Below are positions 16,060 through 59,108 of a stretch of 64,000 nt of DNA, in pieces. A program made the position numbers and the translations under genes. Source of the stretch: Sulfurimonas sp. (GTDB lineage Bacteria > Campylobacterota > Campylobacteria > Campylobacterales > Sulfurimonadaceae); the NCBI GenBank assembly GCA_028687935.1, contig JAQTZE010000009.1:1-64000 (forward strand), given 5' to 3'. Below the pieces are notes generated by a model that had not been told where the DNA came from, ran no database searches, and saw only the letters and a list, made by a program, of their open reading frames with translations. The stretch's first letter is position 1. Each line of letters begins with the position of its first letter.

Positions 16060-16873
16060 ATATCCTACCTAGTTCGTATGTAACGGTTTCATTTTCTATT
16101 TTGATAATTGATATATTATCACCATTGTCTAGCCAATAATGCCCATCTTCTTTAATTTCTAGATCTTCCAAAGCAAGAACTCTTCCATATTTAAGATTTT
16201 CAAAATCTCCATGATAATGATTGAGTGGAATATTGAGCGATTTTTTGATATCTAAAACTTCTTCACCATTGTAGCAAAACTGTCCCTCACTCAGCCTCTC
16301 TAGAGCACTAAGGCTTCCATGTTCCACTCCAAGTCTTGTGGCGATTATCTGACCGAGCGAGCGTATATAAGAACCCTCAGAGACTGTTGCTTCAAAGGTT
16401 ACAAAAGGATGTCTATAATGGACTAGCTGCGTTTCATAGATAGTTGAGTTTATCTTATTGAGCACAACTTCCTTGCCTGCGCGCGCCAAATCGTAAGCAC
16501 GCTGGCCATTGATCTGTTTTGCACTGAAGATTGGCGGTGTATATTCTAGTTCACCCTCAAGAGACTTAATGACATCCAAGACTTTTGCATCGCTAAACGC
16601 AGGAACTATTTCAACATTTTCTATGAGTTCTATATCCAACGAATCACTCTTTGCACCTAGCCAAAGTGTCGCTCTGTACTTTTTTGGTGTTTTATCTAAA
16701 AATCTAAAAAGCTTTGTGTGCGAACCCATCCCGATGATAAGCACACCTTTTGCAAAAGGATCAAGCGTTCCTGAAAAACCAGCTTTTTTATTATTGTACT
16801 TGCGTTTAAGACGACTGAGAAAAAGGTTAGAACCTATACCAGAAGGCTTGTATGCGACGAAAAGACGATTCAT
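16043..16873 (-). CDS. truB: tRNA pseudouridine-55 synthase
   Basis: A 276-residue enzyme making psi55 in the T-loop of tRNAs. N-terminal LFVAYKPSGIGSNLFLSRL, the catalytic Asp in AGFSGTLDPFAKGVLIIGMG, KKYRATLWLGAKSDSLD and YIRSLGQIIA are diagnostic. The start overlaps the helicase stop by 4 nt. Confidence 0.96.
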   Translation of the reverse strand: MNRLFVAYKPSGIGSNLFLSRLKRKYNNKKAGFSGTLDPFAKGVLIIGMGSHTKLFRFLDKTPKKYRATLWLGAKSDSLDIELIENVEIVPAFSDAKVLDVIKSLEGELEYTPPIFSAKQINGQRAYDLARAGKEVVLNKINSTIYETQLVHYRHPFVTFEATVSEGSYIRSLGQIIATRLGVEHGSLSALERLSEGQFCYNGEEVLDIKKSLNIPLNHYHGDFENLKYGRVLALEDLEIKEDGHYWLDNGDNISIIKIENETVTYELGRIYVSTC

Positions 16874-18936
16874 AGTCTCTCTACGAATGAGGCCAAAATG
16901 TCGCGTGTAGTACCTGCAAAATTTATTTTGAGTTTAAATTCGCGTCCTGATTTACCTATTCCTGTCACACGACCTGTTCCAAAAATCTTATGACGCACCA
17001 AATCACCCTTCTTAAACGCAGTGTTTTTTTGTACAATCAAAGAACCCGCACAAAGTCCTGCTTCATTGAAAAATCTGCTCTTTTGCAGATCACTTCTACG
17101 ACCTTTGTAAAATCGGCTGTCAACATGTGAGAGAGTGAGCGTATCTTTTGCTCTGGTGAAAGAGACATAGCCAAGACGTCTCTCCTCTTCTAGGTCACTT
17201 CCATCACCGACTAAAGGTAAAAAGCCCTCTTCTAGTCCTATAATAAAGACATGTTTAAACTCCAAACCTTTGGAAGCATGGATGCTCATCATGTAGATAC
17301 TTTCGCCCTCAACTTGGTCTTGTTCACTCTGAAGTGTCAACTCATTTAAAAACTCATCGATACTCGCCTCTGGTGCATTTTTGACAAAGTCACGCATAAG
17401 TCCGTAAAACTCATCCATGTTTAAGACTCTTTCACTCTCATCAGGTAAGCCTGCATAGATCTTTTTAAGCTCAAATGACTCTTCAAGCAGATCTATAAAA
17501 TCATATGTCGACTCATTGGCAACCTTTGCTGCATATTCTATTTTTTGCAAAAATTCTTTAAGTGTCACTGCGTTTTTCTTACGAACAATCGCTTCAAGTT
17601 CTTCATGAGAGGCATTTTTTATAAACTCATACATTGAAGAACCCTTCTCATGAGCTGCTAGTTCAAGCTTATCAACACTTGCTTTTCCAAGACCGCGTTT
17701 TGGTTTATTGACAATGCGCTTAAAAGAGAAGTCATCATGATGGTTTGTTATCACACGCAAATAAGAGATAAGATCTTTGACCTCAGATCTGTCATAAAAG
17801 CGTAGTCCTCCAACAAGTTTATACGCTACCCCTGCACGGTTAAGCCCCTCTTCTATAGAACGGCTTAAAACGTTTACGCGGTAAAGAATAGCGATATCAT
17901 TTGCACTCACTCCTGCTTCAAAAAGTCTTTTGATATTCATCGCTATCTTTCTTGCTTCTTCATTCTCATCTCCAGAGTTGAGGATAGCAACATCTTCTCC
18001 GCTTCCACGTGTAGCGACAAGTGTCTTGCCCAAACGCGAACGGTTATGTTCAATGAGTGCATTTGCAACTTTGAGTATCGGTTCTTTTGAACGATAGTTT
18101 TCTTCGAGCTTAAATACAGAAGTACCGGGGAAATCTTGGTCAAACTCCATAATATTGCGTATATGTGCCCCACGCCATCCATAAATACTCTGATCATCAT
18201 CCCCAACGACACAGATATTGTTATGCGTTTTACAAAGTATTTGAACGAGCTTTAGTTGTAGTTCGTTTGTATCTTGGTACTCATCGATCATGATGTACTG
18301 ATATTTTTGAGATGTCTGTTCGGCTAAGCTTGGATTTTCTTTGAGAAGTTTGTAGGTCAGTGCGATGAGATCATCAAAATCGACAAGATTGTTCTCATGC
18401 AGATAGGTCTCATACGCCTCATACACTTTTGCAATTTGTTGATAGTTAAAAAATTCCGCTTGCTTATAGGCATCATCAGGGCTTAAAAGAGAGTTTTTAT
18501 AGCGTGAAATTTCGCTTGCAATAAGTGGTGTTGCAAGTTCTGCGTTTATCTTTTTGATAATACGTTTTTTGTCATCACTATCAATGACTACAAAATTATT
18601 TTCGCGCCCTAAAAGGTGGATGTTAAATTTTAAAAAGAGGAGTCCAAATTTATGAAAAGTACATAAAAGCGGAGGATAGGCACTCTGTGTTATCATCACA
18701 GCAGAGCGCTCACGCATCTCTTTGGCTGCTTTGTTTGTAAAGGTAAGGGTAAGCGTGTTTGAAGCAGGTATTCCCACCTCTTCTATGAGATACGCAAGTC
18801 TCGATACAATGGTAGTTGTTTTGCCGCTTCCAGCACCTGCAAGTATCAAAACGGGGCCTTCTGTTTGCCTAACCGCACTTGCTTGAGATTCATTTAATCT
18901 GTCAAATATTTTTTTCATAACAACCACTATTTTCAT
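16870..18936 (-). CDS. uvrD: UvrD/PcrA-family DNA helicase
   Basis: A 688-residue superfamily 1A 3'-5' DNA helicase for nucleotide-excision and mismatch repair. Motif I is LAGAGSGKTTTIVSRLAYL, motif II YIMIDEYQDTNELQ, motif III VGDDDQSIYGWRGA, motif IV LEENYRS, and motif V MSIHASKGLEF. A C-terminal region (KGDLVRHKIFGTGRVTGIG) is the UvrD tudor-like segment. An internal Met at residue 7 (18918) is as good a start as the listed one; neither has a strong ribosome binding site. First gene of an eleven-gene run ending at 9723. Confidence 0.93.
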   Translation of the reverse strand: MKIVVVMKKIFDRLNESQASAVRQTEGPVLILAGAGSGKTTTIVSRLAYLIEEVGIPASNTLTLTFTNKAAKEMRERSAVMITQSAYPPLLCTFHKFGLLFLKFNIHLLGRENNFVVIDSDDKKRIIKKINAELATPLIASEISRYKNSLLSPDDAYKQAEFFNYQQIAKVYEAYETYLHENNLVDFDDLIALTYKLLKENPSLAEQTSQKYQYIMIDEYQDTNELQLKLVQILCKTHNNICVVGDDDQSIYGWRGAHIRNIMEFDQDFPGTSVFKLEENYRSKEPILKVANALIEHNRSRLGKTLVATRGSGEDVAILNSGDENEEARKIAMNIKRLFEAGVSANDIAILYRVNVLSRSIEEGLNRAGVAYKLVGGLRFYDRSEVKDLISYLRVITNHHDDFSFKRIVNKPKRGLGKASVDKLELAAHEKGSSMYEFIKNASHEELEAIVRKKNAVTLKEFLQKIEYAAKVANESTYDFIDLLEESFELKKIYAGLPDESERVLNMDEFYGLMRDFVKNAPEASIDEFLNELTLQSEQDQVEGESIYMMSIHASKGLEFKHVFIIGLEEGFLPLVGDGSDLEEERRLGYVSFTRAKDTLTLSHVDSRFYKGRRSDLQKSRFFNEAGLCAGSLIVQKNTAFKKGDLVRHKIFGTGRVTGIGKSGREFKLKINFAGTTRDILASFVERL

Positions 18937-51455: not shown

Positions 51456-51603
51456 AAAAAACTTCAAAAAACAATATCACATTTTATCTATTTCAACTAC
51501 TTTCAGAAAAAAATTGCAATAAAAGCTGTATAATTTATCATTATGCGTTTTAACGCCATTGAGTCCACTTTTGTGGTCCACTTTTTTTCATGAGGAGTAT
51601 ATT

Positions 51604-54600
51604 ATGAAAACTTTTAATCTTTTTTCGCGATTGATTGTCATCTTTGGATTTGTGATGATTCTTGCTATATCAGGATGGGCAGATACAAATAATAATGATT
51701 CGTGTGCTAACGCTGAAAATGTTAGCCTTAATTATTCAACTACTTCCGGAAGTATGACTAAAGATAGTGACAGAGATGATTACTATGCTTTTAGTGTGAG
51801 CACAGCAGGAACACTTACTATAACTACCACTAATGCAAACCGTGATTTGGATGGGTATTTATTTGAAGCAGGATCATGCAACAGCAGTGGAACTGGTACA
51901 GTTACAAAGGATACTTCAGGTAGTGATAACGTTTCAATTACTTATAATGTTACATCTGCACAAAGTTTTATATTTGACTTATACGATTATGAGAATAAAT
52001 CAACAAACTATAATCTTACAATTACTTTTGTTTCAAGCGCTCCTACTCCAGAAATGAATATTAAAGGCAATAGTGTTGATATTACAGATAATGATAGCAC
52101 TCCAAGTACATCCGATAATACAGACTTTGGAAGTGTTACTATCGGAAATTCAGTCACTAAAACATTCATAATTGAAAATACAGGCACAGGAACACTTAAT
52201 CTGACTGGTTCACCTAGAGTTGTAACGAATGGAGACTTTAGCGTTACTACGCAACCATCTGCCACTGTTGCTGCCGGTGGGTCAACAAGCTTTATCGTCC
52301 AGTTCACTCCAAGCACAGCAGGAATAAAAAATCAAACAATTTCTCTAAGCAATAATGACTCAAATGAAAATCCTTACAACTTTAGTATCAGAGGAACTGG
52401 TCTCACTCCAATCGCCCAAGCAGCTCCAACAATAACAACTATCCCAAACCAAACAGCTTATGTCGGCGCTGCTATTTCCTTAAATATGGCTAGCTATGTG
52501 TCAGACATTAACAATGATGTTATAACTTATGGACTTATTGGGACTCTACCAGCAGGACTTATCTTTAACACTACGACAGGATATATAAGTGGAACACCGA
52601 CTGCCGTTACTGCAGCAACAAATTTTAGATTAACAGCAACAGACAGTGCTGGAAGTGGTACAACTACCACAAGTAATATATTTACTATTTCAGTGACAGA
52701 ACAAATTTTAGAGACATCGGGAGGAAGAGACTTTGTTCAAAGAACACAACATAGTCTTTTTGGAGATGTGAAAGTTATCGGGAATACTGTTTTATGTATC
52801 TTAAATAATGGGGTATGTGTGGAGCCCACCAACAATAACTCAAATGCAGATACAAATTTACAAAAAGCTCCACAATCATATTCTACTTTAACATTACCTA
52901 CAAATGCTGTTATTCAATATGCCCGTGTCTACTGGCAAGGGCGTAAAGCAGCGACAAGTACCAATGATGCTTGGGACAACACATCAAAAAACAGTGCAGC
53001 GACCATTGGGATACGAAAAGGGGCTACAGGCTCATTTACACCACTTACTGCTGATATAAAAGACTTTGATTCCACGGATTCAAACAATTACGTTCGGACA
53101 TATTCTGCGAGTGCAAATGCTATGAGCGTAGTAACGGGGGCTGATACATATTACATTGATACTGCAAACTTTTATACAAATACAGGTAAAACGAACGACA
53201 ATAATCCTAGTGATGGTTTAGGCGCTTATGGAGCATGGGTTCTCGTTATTGTTTATAACGATCCAAACGAAACAAAAGCAAGGAATGTGACGCTGTTCGA
53301 TGGATATAAACAAGTCACTAAAGATACTGGAAATATAGATATAAGCGTTTCTGGCTTTCTTACACCAAGAACGGGTACGGTTGATTCTAAAACTTATGTA
53401 TTTACCGCTGAAGGTGATAAATACCTTGAAAAAAATGGCGATGTAATAAAAATGGCAGGTCTTACTTACCACACAACATTACAAACTTTAGGTACTTTTA
53501 ACTCTCGTGTTGATGTTTTAGGAACGAGAAGTCCAAGTCTTTCAAACAATAATGGAATTGATATCCACAAGTACGATACAGGGACAACCACTGGGGCAAA
53601 AAATATTATTGATACAAATGAAGTAGGAGCTAAATTTCAGTTTACTTCCGATCAAGACACTTATTTTCCTTCACTTATTGTTTTTTCAACAGAGCTTTAT
53701 CTGCCACAGTTGTGTTATGACTACTCTATAAAACAAGATGGTCACTATTTCAATATTGATAGAACTACTTATCCTATAGCGCATCTAGATGGATACATAT
53801 CTTCTTCACCTGTAGAAGTCACTGTATATCTAAAAAACAAAGAAGCTGATATTGACGCACAAGGTATTGCACTTAAAGCAGATGTTAACGATACACTTTT
53901 TGATCTTAGCGGTAATATTTTTACTTCTAATGTTAATGGTTCCACACTCATTGATAGAGGAACTCCAACTTCTAGCGCTACACTATGTGACTATAATAGA
54001 GATGGTGACAACTCTGTGACCAACAGCGGATGTACAAATGGTCATGATATACGTAAAGGGAATGGCTCTTTATCGGCACAAGATTATGTCTATACCAAGT
54101 ATATTTTACAACCTAATAATGTTACTGGCGTTACACGAGTAAGCCAACCACTCGGTCTATCTATCAAATATTACATAACTGCCAATGGTAATAAAGTTGA
54201 ATATCCTGACTATGTCTTAGGTGGTGTCAATGTGCCTCTTTGTCCGCCAACTGCCTCATACCAACCAGAATGGGGTTACTTCAATGTCGTACAAAGCGGA
54301 CAAGCAAATAACTCTATAAAAAACAATATTTATTCTCAAATATCTCGTAAACCATTTGATGCAACTGTTGTTTTTGATTCTACTCCAGCAACTGGAAATA
54401 ATCAAGCGCCAACTTCAAATATCAAAACAACTTTGCTTGTTGAGATTATCGATATAGATGCCTTTGGAGATATCAATGCATCTTGCGCAAATCCTGATTC
54501 TAGTTTGTCTGAGCCAATCTTTACTTCTGTAAACTTTACAAATACTAGCTTTCAAGCAAATTTAACGACACAAAGTAATGATTATTATAACTTTGCTGTA

Positions 54601-56550
54601 CAAAACGCAGCTTTTAGAATTTGGTACTTTAATGATGTAAATGGAACGCTTATACAAGATTGGAATGCAACAACTACGAATGCAAATAAAACACTTACAG
54701 GGATTGCAGGTCTCTATAAACCTACTACGCACACACTATGTAGTAGCCAATGCGCAACACCAACATCAACAACTTGTTTTGATTGTATCAAAACGAATTA
54801 TGCACAGCCGATCTGTTCACGAGACAACTTCTCTATACGTCCAGAATCGTATGATCTCCGTCTTTACGATGTAAATCAAACACTGCCTGCATATGATATT
54901 GCGACCGATCCAACAAATCTCAAGAACACAACTAAAGTTGATCTTTCAAACAAATATGGATATGATCCTCTACATTCTACTCCTACAGATCGTATCAATT
55001 TAGCTTCAGAGTACAATTATAGATTTGATATTGCTGCAACTGGACATGATGGCATCACATTTGTTCCTGGTTATACGAGATACTTTAATGGAGAATTAGA
55101 CTACAATGCAGTCCTACTATGGGATCCACAATCAACAAAGACAGGCTGCAACGATATAACAGATAAGAATATTTCTTTCTATGTTGGAAATGGCGTAATG
55201 CAAAATGAAGAACACAATCATTTGGAAGTCGGAGAATATAAACTCAATATTTTTGATACTACATGGACAGCAAGAGATTGGCAAAATATGACACATCATA
55301 CTACTGCAAATGCTTTTACATTAGATCCAGATTGTAATACAAATTCAAATTCTTCAACACTCACAAATTACAGATATGGATGTAATGTCTCTACAGATCA
55401 TGGGAGTGATGGAGGTGGCCGTGTTTATAAAGATCATGACTTAACATTTCATCCCTATAAATTTGATGTACTTGGTATAATCGCATCTGTTGGTCTCAAT
55501 CATGATATTAATGTCACTAATGCTTTTATCTATATGGCAGATATGAATCAAAGTCAAGATGAAAATATGTCTTTTCATCTCAATGGCACAATCATTGCCA
55601 AAGGATATAACAATGTAGTGCCAAGTAACTTTGTTAATAATTGCTACGCTAAAGCACTTGATATCAATGTCACGGAAACCAATACTTCTCATACTAATAG
55701 TAGCGGTATCAACCTTGCATATCAGCTGCGTTTTCATGATATAAACGCAAGCGGAAGCGTTATCACTTCTTTTGATATAAACGCAACAAAAACATTGGCA
55801 ATGGATGATGCAAACATTCAGACTGGACAAAACTACTTCACAAAAGATCTCAATGGAAGCATGAGTACTGTCTTAAATCTCAACTACTCAAGAGAATCAA
55901 ATGTAACTGCTAATCCAAAAACTATTTATATCAGCAAATATAAGGTTAACTGCATAAACTCAGAAGATGAATGCACATTTAACGCTAATTTAGATGAAAA
56001 TACAACCCAAGGTGAAAAAGATATAAACGCAACGATCAAACACTATTATGGTCGTACAAATGTTCCAAAACAAGTATATATATCTCCTGTAGGAACAACT
56101 GGAACTCCGGCTAATGATCTAATCTATTATGAAGTTTTTTGTAATGGAACTGGATGCGACAAAACGCTTCTCTCAAATGGAGTAAACTCACGAAATTCTG
56201 ATGATCCACGATGGTTTATCAATACAAGTCACATCGCCGGGTTTGGAACGGCTGGAAATATAAATCAAAAAAATGCAGCAAATGTTACTGCTACAACTGC
56301 AGGCGGTGTGCATCAGGATTCTACAAATATCGTCTATGATACACTTAAAGGCTATCCATATAAAGCTACAATGGAGCATAATGCTTCAAGTTGGCTCATC
56401 TATAATAGATACAATGCTGCAGCAACACTCAATGAATTTGAAGTTGAATTTCAAGCTCCAGAATCTGGTTGGACGGGTATCCACAATAACAATATAAATA
56501 CTGCTGTAGGTAAAGGTGCTATCTGGACAAATAAAAGGTTGGATTGGTAA
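51604..56550 (+). CDS. Giant secreted multidomain surface protein (pilus-associated adhesin candidate)
   Basis: 1648 residues from the ATG at 51604, which has GAGGAG 7 nt upstream; a TTG at 51559 would start in frame but adds a non-signal extension. A Sec signal peptide ends near residue 26 (ISGWA). Order: a PPC-like beta domain (about 30-145, DDYYAFSVSTAGTLTITTT); a choice-of-anchor-D domain (about 148-265); a putative Ig domain (about 275-372, NQTAYVGAAISLNM ... ISGTPTAV); a large beta-rich region (from about 375, YARVYWQGRKAATS); and a long C-terminal part with several paired Cys. It has 18 D/E-X-N-X-S/T glycosylation sequons, all beyond about residue 760. The stop overlaps the next pilin start, and the arrangement resembles MSHA-type pilus loci, where a large MshQ-like protein sits with minor pilins. 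Confidence 0.8.
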   Translation: MKTFNLFSRLIVIFGFVMILAISGWADTNNNDSCANAENVSLNYSTTSGSMTKDSDRDDYYAFSVSTAGTLTITTTNANRDLDGYLFEAGSCNSSGTGTVTKDTSGSDNVSITYNVTSAQSFIFDLYDYENKSTNYNLTITFVSSAPTPEMNIKGNSVDITDNDSTPSTSDNTDFGSVTIGNSVTKTFIIENTGTGTLNLTGSPRVVTNGDFSVTTQPSATVAAGGSTSFIVQFTPSTAGIKNQTISLSNNDSNENPYNFSIRGTGLTPIAQAAPTITTIPNQTAYVGAAISLNMASYVSDINNDVITYGLIGTLPAGLIFNTTTGYISGTPTAVTAATNFRLTATDSAGSGTTTTSNIFTISVTEQILETSGGRDFVQRTQHSLFGDVKVIGNTVLCILNNGVCVEPTNNNSNADTNLQKAPQSYSTLTLPTNAVIQYARVYWQGRKAATSTNDAWDNTSKNSAATIGIRKGATGSFTPLTADIKDFDSTDSNNYVRTYSASANAMSVVTGADTYYIDTANFYTNTGKTNDNNPSDGLGAYGAWVLVIVYNDPNETKARNVTLFDGYKQVTKDTGNIDISVSGFLTPRTGTVDSKTYVFTAEGDKYLEKNGDVIKMAGLTYHTTLQTLGTFNSRVDVLGTRSPSLSNNNGIDIHKYDTGTTTGAKNIIDTNEVGAKFQFTSDQDTYFPSLIVFSTELYLPQLCYDYSIKQDGHYFNIDRTTYPIAHLDGYISSSPVEVTVYLKNKEADIDAQGIALKADVNDTLFDLSGNIFTSNVNGSTLIDRGTPTSSATLCDYNRDGDNSVTNSGCTNGHDIRKGNGSLSAQDYVYTKYILQPNNVTGVTRVSQPLGLSIKYYITANGNKVEYPDYVLGGVNVPLCPPTASYQPEWGYFNVVQSGQANNSIKNNIYSQISRKPFDATVVFDSTPATGNNQAPTSNIKTTLLVEIIDIDAFGDINASCANPDSSLSEPIFTSVNFTNTSFQANLTTQSNDYYNFAVQNAAFRIWYFNDVNGTLIQDWNATTTNANKTLTGIAGLYKPTTHTLCSSQCATPTSTTCFDCIKTNYAQPICSRDNFSIRPESYDLRLYDVNQTLPAYDIATDPTNLKNTTKVDLSNKYGYDPLHSTPTDRINLASEYNYRFDIAATGHDGITFVPGYTRYFNGELDYNAVLLWDPQSTKTGCNDITDKNISFYVGNGVMQNEEHNHLEVGEYKLNIFDTTWTARDWQNMTHHTTANAFTLDPDCNTNSNSSTLTNYRYGCNVSTDHGSDGGGRVYKDHDLTFHPYKFDVLGIIASVGLNHDINVTNAFIYMADMNQSQDENMSFHLNGTIIAKGYNNVVPSNFVNNCYAKALDINVTETNTSHTNSSGINLAYQLRFHDINASGSVITSFDINATKTLAMDDANIQTGQNYFTKDLNGSMSTVLNLNYSRESNVTANPKTIYISKYKVNCINSEDECTFNANLDENTTQGEKDINATIKHYYGRTNVPKQVYISPVGTTGTPANDLIYYEVFCNGTGCDKTLLSNGVNSRNSDDPRWFINTSHIAGFGTAGNINQKNAANVTATTAGGVHQDSTNIVYDTLKGYPYKATMEHNASSWLIYNRYNAAATLNEFEVEFQAPESGWTGIHNNNINTAVGKGAIWTNKRLDW

Positions 56551-57197
56551 TGACAAAGCTCAGAACTGCTTTTACTCTAATTGAGTTAATATTTGCTATC
56601 GTAATAATAGGTATAGCAACTTTATCTTTGCCAATGATCTCCCAAGTCACAGCAAAAGGAAGTGAAAAAAGTTTGGCGCAGGAGGCTATCTTTATCGCCT
56701 TCACTGAGATCACAAAAGTAACCTCTTCCGCTTGGGATGAAAATAGCAGAACTGGTACAAATGATTTTGAGTACGTTATCTACGCATCAACTACAGAAGC
56801 AAATACTTCAGCAATAAACGATTTGCGAGGTAGATCGGGTAATATCAATATCCTTTACAATAATACGGATGGTAATAGAACTTTACGCCCTACAATGGTA
56901 ACTTTTGATCCAGATGACAATGCAACAGGAGTATTCAGAGAAGATGACATTGACGACTATATCATCTTAACCGCAAACGCAACTGGAAGTGCAGGAAGTC
57001 AAACTGGCTACAAGTATCAATATACAAAAGACATAAATGTAACTACTCCTGCATCATTTGGAACACTCGCAAACGATCCAAACATCAAAAGAATTCAAAT
57101 CGGTGTGAATGATTCTACAGGCTTGATTGTCAGTTTTTATATGTATGCAACCAACAGTGGGAGTGTTGCAAATCATCCATGGAGGGTTTTAGAATGA
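56550..57197 (+). CDS. Type IV pilin-like minor pilin
   Basis: A 215-residue prepilin. A short leader MTKLRTA is followed by FTLIELIFAIVIIGIATLSL, with Glu5 present and Ala before the cut. The start is the ATG overlapping the surface-protein TAA (TAATG); an in-frame TTG 6 nt earlier is less likely. Four N-glycosylation sequons are present (EANTS, DGNRT, DDNAT, DINVT). Tight coupling to the giant protein upstream and to two more pilin-like genes downstream points to one pilus or pseudopilus complex. Confidence 0.88.
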   Translation: MTKLRTAFTLIELIFAIVIIGIATLSLPMISQVTAKGSEKSLAQEAIFIAFTEITKVTSSAWDENSRTGTNDFEYVIYASTTEANTSAINDLRGRSGNINILYNNTDGNRTLRPTMVTFDPDDNATGVFREDDIDDYIILTANATGSAGSQTGYKYQYTKDINVTTPASFGTLANDPNIKRIQIGVNDSTGLIVSFYMYATNSGSVANHPWRVLE

Positions 57198-58078
57198 AAC
57201 GCAGTGCTTTTACTATGCTTGAACTCATCTTTGTCATTGTTGTCATGGGGATAATTGGAAAATTTGGAGTGGAGTTTTTAGCCCAAGCATACAAAACTTT
57301 TATCCAGGCAAAAATAAATAATGAACTTCATGCAAACAGTGCAAATGCGCTTCAGTTTATTGCCAAAAGATTAGAATATCGTATACCTCCATCTGCCATC
57401 AAAAGAATTTCAGGTGCAGCTGGGTTTGTTGGTGTAACTGAAGTTGTAGCCAATCCAAATGCATATAATGTTTTAGAATGGATATCCTATGACAGCGATG
57501 GTTTCAGAGGGACGAATGCACCATTATGGAGCGGGATTGTAGATCTAGACCCTTCTGTAACAACACTGAATGCTATAACGTCTGTAGCAACCAATACAAC
57601 TGACGTAGATGATCTTATTAAAATTTTATCCAACAACACTAAAACTATTGCTAATGCTGCAATCATTTTTAATGCAGAAAACAGTCATCCAAACTCTTTT
57701 GGATGGTCTGGCGGTGATGTTTTAAATGACCAGTCGCAAGCAATGCACCCTATAAATGCTGCTAGCGCAACTTCTTTTAGCTCAAGTCTTGGAGGCATAA
57801 ACTTCAACGGTATGAAAATCTATAATCGCTATATGTTAGCATGGAGTGCTTATGCTATTGTTCATAACGGAACAGATCTAATACTTTATTACAATTATCA
57901 ACCTTGGGCAGGGCAAAACTATTTAAATGGTACTCCCGAACTTTTAATGCAAAATGTAGACACTTTTAGAATAAAGACCAATCCAAGTGGCGGGATATTT
58001 AGTATCATGGTATGTGCCAGAAGTAATCTTATTGCTGGGGAGGATCATTCAATATGCAAAGAAAAAGTCATATTTTAA
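57194..58078 (+). CDS. Type IV pilin-like protein, larger minor pilin
   Basis: A 294-residue prepilin beginning MKRSAFTMLELIFVIVVMG, again with Ala at -1 and Glu5. The start is the ATG at 57194, which overlaps the previous TGA (ATGA) and has GGAGGG 7 nt upstream. The first helix contains IIGKFGVEFLAQAYKTF. The size and position match the GspJ/PilW/MshO class of minor pilins that cap the fibre. No sequon of the D/E type was found. Confidence 0.85.
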   Translation: MKRSAFTMLELIFVIVVMGIIGKFGVEFLAQAYKTFIQAKINNELHANSANALQFIAKRLEYRIPPSAIKRISGAAGFVGVTEVVANPNAYNVLEWISYDSDGFRGTNAPLWSGIVDLDPSVTTLNAITSVATNTTDVDDLIKILSNNTKTIANAAIIFNAENSHPNSFGWSGGDVLNDQSQAMHPINAASATSFSSSLGGINFNGMKIYNRYMLAWSAYAIVHNGTDLILYYNYQPWAGQNYLNGTPELLMQNVDTFRIKTNPSGGIFSIMVCARSNLIAGEDHSICKEKVIF

Positions 58079-58506
58079 GACTCAAACGCAATGGTATGGC
58101 TATGATTATGGCTATCTCAGTTATTGTAATTGTTGCGACTATATTGAGCCTTGCACTTTCTCTCACTACCCTTACAAACAAGAGCAGTGTTGATTTATAT
58201 GTATATGAACAAGCAAATCTTCTTGCTAGAAGTGCAGGAGAATATGCAAAACTCAAAATTGGTACGGATAATAGTGATGTAAACAGATGTGGGTACGCTG
58301 GAGAAACTTTTACTCAAGACTACTACAATGTAATTATCAGTGTTAATTATATATATGATACTAGTACATCAATGTGTGGTACTGCTTCATTAGCTCAAAC
58401 AGACCCTTTTGGAGTTGCGCGCATAGATGTGACCGTTGAAGTTAATAATCCAGCTATTACAAGTGAGCCGATTAGAATATTCAAAAGAAAATTGGTTGAG
58501 TTATAA
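58054..58506 (+). CDS. PilX/MshP-like minor pilin
   Basis: A 150-residue protein with a basic leader (MQRKSHILRLKRNG) and the hydrophobic segment MAMIMAISVIVIVATILSLALSL. It lacks the FTxxE prepilin core, like GspK/PilX/MshP proteins. It then carries two Cys that could pair (RCGYAG, SMCGTA). It overlaps the previous gene by 25 nt and ends the surface-protein/pilin operon. Confidence 0.75.
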   Translation: MQRKSHILRLKRNGMAMIMAISVIVIVATILSLALSLTTLTNKSSVDLYVYEQANLLARSAGEYAKLKIGTDNSDVNRCGYAGETFTQDYYNVIISVNYIYDTSTSMCGTASLAQTDPFGVARIDVTVEVNNPAITSEPIRIFKRKLVEL

Positions 58507-58574: not shown

Positions 58575-59108
58575 ATGAATATTTCATTAACTGGAAGACA
58601 CGTAGAGCTTACTGAAGGTATCAAGGCTCATATGAATACTTCTATCGATACACTTAGCAAATTTCATATGGACATCATATCTGTAAACGTTATCGCTTCT
58701 GCACAAAGTAAAAAAGGTAAAGACCACTCATGTGTTGAGTATGTTATCAACCTTGCACACAAAAACTCAGTTATCATCAAACAAAGTGATGATGATTTAT
58801 ATGCTGCTATCGACCTTGCAACTGCAAGAGCACAAAAAGCGCTTCGCCGTATGCACGACCGTGACACGGATCACCACAAAGTTGGTATCAATGACACTAA
58901 AGCTGAAACTGCTGATGTTAAAGCTGAAACAGAAGCTATGGAAGATGAGATCGTTCCTGTTTCACTTGCACTGTACAAGCCTCGTGAAGTAGAAGATGTT
59001 TTGACAGATCTTAAAGAAAGCACAAAAGTTTTCGAGATCTTTTTGGACAACGAAGGTAAAACTCGCGTTTTATACAAAAAAAGCAACGGTGCGTTTGGTC
59101 TTTACTAA
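58575..59108 (+). CDS. hpf: Ribosome hibernation promoting factor, long form
   Basis: A 177-residue protein that dimerises idle 70S ribosomes. The N-terminal S30AE domain (1-100, MNISLTGRHVELTEGIKAHM ... DDDLYAAIDLATARAQKAL) and the C-terminal dimerisation domain (about 125-177, FEIFLDNEGKTRVLYKKSNGAFGLY) mark the long form. CAAGGATTATTA precedes the ATG. Own promoter likely after the pilin operon (GCTATAATTTT at about 58540). Confidence 0.94.
   Translation: MNISLTGRHVELTEGIKAHMNTSIDTLSKFHMDIISVNVIASAQSKKGKDHSCVEYVINLAHKNSVIIKQSDDDLYAAIDLATARAQKALRRMHDRDTDHHKVGINDTKAETADVKAETEAMEDEIVPVSLALYKPREVEDVLTDLKESTKVFEIFLDNEGKTRVLYKKSNGAFGLY

Follow-up and report, generated by a model that had tools for sequence, protein, structure and literature searches.

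A sequon-dense giant protein encoded with minor prepilins in Sulfurimonas is a probable N-glycosylated pilus-tip adhesin

In Vibrio cholerae, the type IVa pilus known as MSHA has MshQ as its putative adhesin (PMC7096442). PilY1 and the minor pilins FimU, PilV, PilW and PilX, an adhesin acting with minor pilins, were proposed to prime pilus assembly and to form the tip (PMC7541494, PMC5979040). Archaeal surface-filament proteins bear N-glycans (PMC2952790), and the role of bacterial general N-glycosylation is still poorly defined (PMC6478998). Both the Pgl system and MshQ have been described before; the literature searched, which comprised open-access papers only, contained no pilus-tip operon that is rich in sequons and stays so throughout an order.

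The window, that is, the whole 64,000-nucleotide stretch of Sulfurimonas DNA that was analysed, encodes a giant protein with the following features.

51604 to 56550, plus strand: giant, putatively exported MshQ-like protein, 1,648 aa, ATG start
51604 to 51681, plus strand: Sec-type signal peptide, residues 1-26 (MKTFNLFSRLIVIFGFVMILAISGWA), predicted by inspection only
52048 to 52395, plus strand: choice-of-anchor D / HYDIN-type Ig domain, residues 149-264 (NF012200, E 8e-22; PF22544, E 1.8e-12)
52423 to 52698, plus strand: He_PIG Ig domain, residues 274-365 (PF05345, E 4.5e-14)
52696 to 53829, plus strand: head module, residues 365-742, all-beta model (pLDDT 88), no sequons
53824 to 56547, plus strand: conserved C-terminal region, residues 741-1648, Ig-like beta sandwiches, containing all 18 sequons
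53881 to 56388, plus strand: span of the 18 D/E-X-N-X-S/T sequons, from DVNDT (Asn 762) to EHNAS (Asn 1593)

An alternative TTG start is possible at 51559. The protein met the export criterion through its N-terminal signal peptide, which was judged by eye without a prediction program. Its nearest named homologs are from Sulfurimonas. The N-terminal modules differ among homologs, with choice-of-anchor D and He_PIG in the giant protein and choice-of-anchor L in the homolog at L173, and the head module is present in roughly one in two named homologs, while the C-terminal part is conserved. AlphaFold modelled residues 741-1648 (pLDDT 82) as a string of Ig-like beta sandwiches. Structure search with this model returned Ig-like matches only, the best being VIA, a streptococcal pilin (Z 8.6 across 110 residues), and search with the head model gave nothing above Z 6.9 and no obvious relative in the PDB. 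Neither predicted model is used to assign a family.

With the sequon defined as D/E-X-N-X-S/T (X not P), the sequon Asn residues were 762, 958, 1013, 1021, 1091, 1189, 1303, 1315, 1321, 1355, 1360, 1381, 1393, 1417, 1433, 1466, 1475 and 1593. The original prediction of 18 such motifs between about residues 760 and 1595, against about three expected from residue frequencies, was thus matched exactly in number and closely in position and expectation. Composition predicted 3.34 sequons for the whole protein and 1.71 for residues 741-1600, so the observed number was 5.4-fold over chance. None of 2,000 shuffles reached 18 sequons; shuffling within local 40-aa blocks (20,000 shuffles) averaged 3.3 and never exceeded 13, and a Markov-1 null averaged 3.5 with 12 at most. 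In residues 741-1600, the reversed motif was found once (1.7 expected), D/E-X-Q-X-S/T was absent, D/E-X-D-X-S/T was found twice (1.0 expected), and motifs with shifted spacings were found one to four times (about 1.8 expected each). N-X-S/T without D/E at -2 was not enriched in the giant protein, and the remaining frames of the same DNA contained zero to two sequons. Loops held 67% of sequon Asn and 62% of other Asn, so the sequons were not loop-enriched, which counts against the reading as an N-glycosylated tip adhesin.

The proteome control covered about 1.37 Mb of the 2.58 Mb genome, with the cytoplasmic and exported classes set by simple hydrophobicity rules. Cytoplasmic proteins contained 0.9 of the expected sequons. 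Asn-rich cytoplasmic proteins, in which an equal sequon density would have counted against the original prediction, contained 25 against 31 expected and were not enriched. Exported proteins showed a 1.9-fold enrichment even with the giant protein excluded, and the reversed motif in them stood at 1.0. G044 comes from the same order, consists of one contig and gave no STT3 match; its exported proteins contained 0.99 of the expected sequons. A second sequon-dense exported protein, of 1,413 aa with Big_9/cadherin domains, is encoded on C28 (L163:13406-17644, C28:33406-37644) and carries 22 sequons against 2.7 expected. A further prepilin-like protein of 228 aa, encoded at 149-832 of the window on the minus strand, carries two against 0.15 expected. 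Two 379-aa ORFs with the same N-terminus (L042:14400-15539 and 16803-17942) are probably a tandem duplication.

Enrichment was also found across the family. Nearly all of about 100 Campylobacterales homologs were sequon-enriched, 6-fold when pooled; 68 named homologs contained 1,001 sequons against 165 expected, with 138 copies of the reversed motif. In 34 family members the pooled count was 547 against 87 expected (6.3-fold), while the reversed motif was found 65 times against 87 and N-X-S/T lacking D/E at -2 was found 711 times against 706. In these 34 members, D and E alone were enriched at -2, S and T alone at +2 given D/E at -2, and Asn alone at the centre; Pro was rare at both X positions, and D/E-x-D-x-S/T, D/E-x-Q-x-S/T, D/E-x-N-x-D/N and the reversed motif were at 0.75 to 1.2 of chance. 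Judged from these sequences, the profile is the fingerprint of PglB, in agreement with the proposal that the motif is the acceptor of the Campylobacter enzyme. Relatives 52-56% identical to the giant protein retained seven or eight of the 18 sites, and sequon Asn was retained about as often as Asn generally. The sites therefore turn over at high number, so that what selection seems to favour is a density of glycans, not particular positions.

A single STT3/PglB is encoded in the 2.58 Mb genome, at C41:141911-143029. It aligned end to end with Campylobacter lari PglB (5ogl; phmmer E 2.4e-160) and retains the equivalents of D56, R147, D154, D156, E319, R331 and WWDYG, which include catalytic residues and residues that read the -2 position. 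R331 helps to read the acid at -2, and the conserved Arg alone is insufficient to fix the -2 rule (PMC4894442). Against the PglB model of NCBIfam it scored E 1.1e-192 and 642 bits, below the model cut-off of 1300 bits; the protein is therefore named a PglB homolog and not the Campylobacter equivalog. The absence of a pglB homologue, which would have refuted the original prediction, was thus not met, but the pgl locus expected with it was not recovered: pglB lies outside any pgl cluster, away from pglC and glycosyltransferase genes, and its neighbours by inspection are sugar-kinase-like, radical-SAM-like, galU-like and sugar-isomerase-like genes. Profile search gave no match to PF02397 (PglC) in the genome, which leaves the start of the lipid-linked glycan open. 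Enzymes of the WecA/MraY type (PF00953) do occur: the one on C28 resembles MraY, and there are others on C30 and C8. Relatives G006, G020, G021, G026 and G030 likewise have PglB and no PF02397 match.

PglB was present in 47 of the 50 genomes of named homologs. The genome G314 belongs to the same genus and is 99% complete, in 110 contigs; neither family nor protein search detected PglB in it, and its giant homolog carried three sequons against 2.2 expected. The homolog at L173, where PglB is present, is 45% identical to that of G314 over its length and carried 24 sequons against 2.5 expected; two of these 24 sites survive in G314, against 10 to 11 in L188 and L186, from genomes with PglB. G314 is a single case, and its lack of PglB could be an assembly gap. 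The correspondence was not complete in either direction. At L206 (L206:6095-10507) PglB is present and the homolog had two sequons against 2.4 expected, and in G295, also with PglB, a distant homolog had none. G303, G092, G164 and others were enriched, yet gave no PglB match; these are draft genomes. The seeming negatives G230 and G102 had PglB fragments on short contigs, so fragmented drafts do give false negatives. The presence of the family against that of STT3 in 299 genomes gave counts of 164/25/55/55 (Fisher P 9e-12), which serves as support only, given the relatedness of the genomes and the assembly gaps behind some of the STT3 negatives. The prepilins at L206 are likewise not sequon-enriched despite PglB.

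Downstream of the giant gene, four further genes were identified.

56550 to 57197, plus strand: prepilin 1, 215 aa, with a type IV N-methylation motif and four sequons (0.35 expected)
57179 to 58078, plus strand: prepilin 2, 299 aa, resembling GspJ/MshO in size and position, no sequons
58054 to 58506, plus strand: prepilin 3, 150 aa, with a GspK/PilX/MshP-like N-terminus, no sequons
58575 to 59108, plus strand: ribosome-hibernation-factor-like cytoplasmic protein, named by sequence resemblance with no profile run

The order of the giant gene, three prepilins and the ribosome-hibernation-factor-like gene was found in 51 named loci. Over these loci prepilin 1 carried 116 sequons against 16.3 expected (7-fold), prepilin 2 carried 125 against 17.7 (7-fold), and prepilin 3 carried 95 against 6.9 (14-fold), while the cytoplasmic neighbour, an internal negative control, carried six against 9.3 (0.6-fold). 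At 56550-58506 itself, prepilin 1 alone of the three carries sequons.

DUF6701 (PF20419), the domain of MshQ, was matched at L206 (E 4e-8) and in two of 31 family members (best 4.8e-9), and on these matches the family appears remotely linked to MshQ. The giant protein itself had no DUF6701 match in the profile search, and its C-terminal part was left unassigned by Pfam. Genes on C36 stand in MSHA order: secretin-like, AAA_22 (MshM-like), TPR (MshN-like), MshEN with T2SSE (MshE-like) and T2SSF (MshG-like). As read from these domains and their order, the genome carries an MSHA-type pilus machine there. The suggestion of an adhesin or pilus-tip protein was therefore supported by the downstream prepilins, the remote MshQ homology, the MSHA-type machine and the Ig-like stalk model. 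Its heavy N-glycosylation, claimed together with this role, is backed by the sequons and PglB but is itself inferred.

Sequon density could in principle reflect the fold, with D-x-N-x-S/T repeated in the Ig-like domains for structural or metal-binding reasons, for example as a turn or a calcium loop, unrelated to glycosylation. All sequons do lie in the beta-sandwich string, some at strand ends, and the words DINAT and DINAS recur. We nevertheless consider this improbable: related and reversed motifs stay near chance, E serves at -2 and either S or T at +2, neither X position tolerates Pro well, the sites turn over among relatives, and the motif is also enriched in prepilins and exported proteins of unrelated fold. 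A calcium-loop motif was rejected since related motifs were not enriched. The protein is also rich in Asn (10.8%), in Asp and in Ser and Thr (21% together), and the abundant word AAACGCA supplies Asn-Ala codons, so that a bias of composition or DNA might produce the motif. The overlap of this word with the sequons, which the original prediction had pointed out, is real but small; AAACGCA does not explain the sequons because only three of the 18 Asn (1381, 1393 and 1475) lie in it. Against this bias also stand the composition, local-block and Markov nulls, with means of 3.3-3.5 and, for the last two, maxima of 12-13, the lack of enrichment in Asn-rich cytoplasmic proteins, and the sequon-rich homologs at L173 and L179, which have hardly any AAACGCA. 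A composition or codon artefact was rejected on the shuffles, the other frames and the cytoplasmic controls, and we give this account almost no weight. AAACGCA itself is the commonest 7-mer, with 2,563 copies on both strands of the 1.37 Mb (1.9 per kb) and 107 in the window, and is followed by A or G in 88% of cases; it is dense in L198, L201 and L194, is nearly absent from other relatives, and looks like a DNA-uptake-type repeat.

It remains conceivable, though unlikely, that the sequons are glycosylated on a surface or secreted adhesin that is not part of a pilus, with the prepilins merely co-regulated. Direct pilus evidence is lacking, the head is modular, and the sequon-rich cadherin/Big_9 protein on C28 is encoded away from the operon; such a separation from the pilus is hard to reconcile with the order of giant gene and three prepilins kept in 51 loci, and with remote MshQ homology in a genome that has an MSHA-type machine. 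We consider it likely that the giant protein is a divergent MshQ, an MSHA-type pilus-tip adhesin N-glycosylated by PglB on an Ig-like stalk, for which there are no glycan data. The protein would be exported by Sec, and the cell's own PglB would N-glycosylate many sites in the periplasm, during or after translocation. The adjacently encoded minor pilins may then carry it outward in the tip complex of an MSHA-type pilus, with glycans coating the stalk of Ig-like domains. Computation established the motif and its specificity, its restriction to exported proteins, the PglB, the conserved prepilin operon and the almost complete lack of sequons in one Sulfurimonas relative without detected PglB; site occupancy and the pilus-tip location are inferred, as is a role of the glycans in protecting, solubilising or stiffening the stalk.

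The sequon is dense in this marine sulfur bacterium and is kept so in the pilus-tip genes of its relatives, so bacteria probably build sugar-coated pilus tips. That Campylobacterales MSHA-type pili in general have a tip complex of one giant adhesin and three minor pilins, in which N-glycan density itself is selected, is a proposition to which we give even odds; such a tip would be a bacterial glycan-coated one, with sites that turn over at constant density and decay upon loss of PglB. The signal comes from genomes only: the selected PglB sites are concentrated within a single operon that holds its own negative control, and there is a relative in which PglB was not found. The pilus tip is a probable main client of PglB in free-living Campylobacterota, and its function can be tested in one operon. 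A general route is also suggested, in which N-glycoproteomes and the specificity of oligosaccharyltransferases are predicted from sequence.

Compared with known systems, the giant protein resembles MshQ in being large, predicted to be exported and multi-domain, and in having minor prepilin genes beside its own in a species that has an MSHA-type machine. Unlike MshQ, it lacks a DUF6701 match and is dense in PglB sequons, and its operon begins with the adhesin followed by the minor prepilins and is separate from the genes of the machine. The pairing of an adhesin with minor pilins is like that of the PilY1 tip complex; the PilY1-type beta-propeller C-terminal domain was not matched in the giant protein by Pfam up to E 1, and the giant protein, unlike PilY1, has Ig-like strings. 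With the general Pgl system of Campylobacter it shares the identical extended sequon and a PglB homologous over its full length, but here 18 sequons occur in one Sulfurimonas protein with the density family-wide, and PglB is encoded outside a pgl cluster, PglC not having been found. The predicted N-glycans on a surface filament recall archaeal N-glycosylated surface-filament and S-layer proteins, from which the locus differs in its bacterial extended sequon and its MSHA-type pilus.
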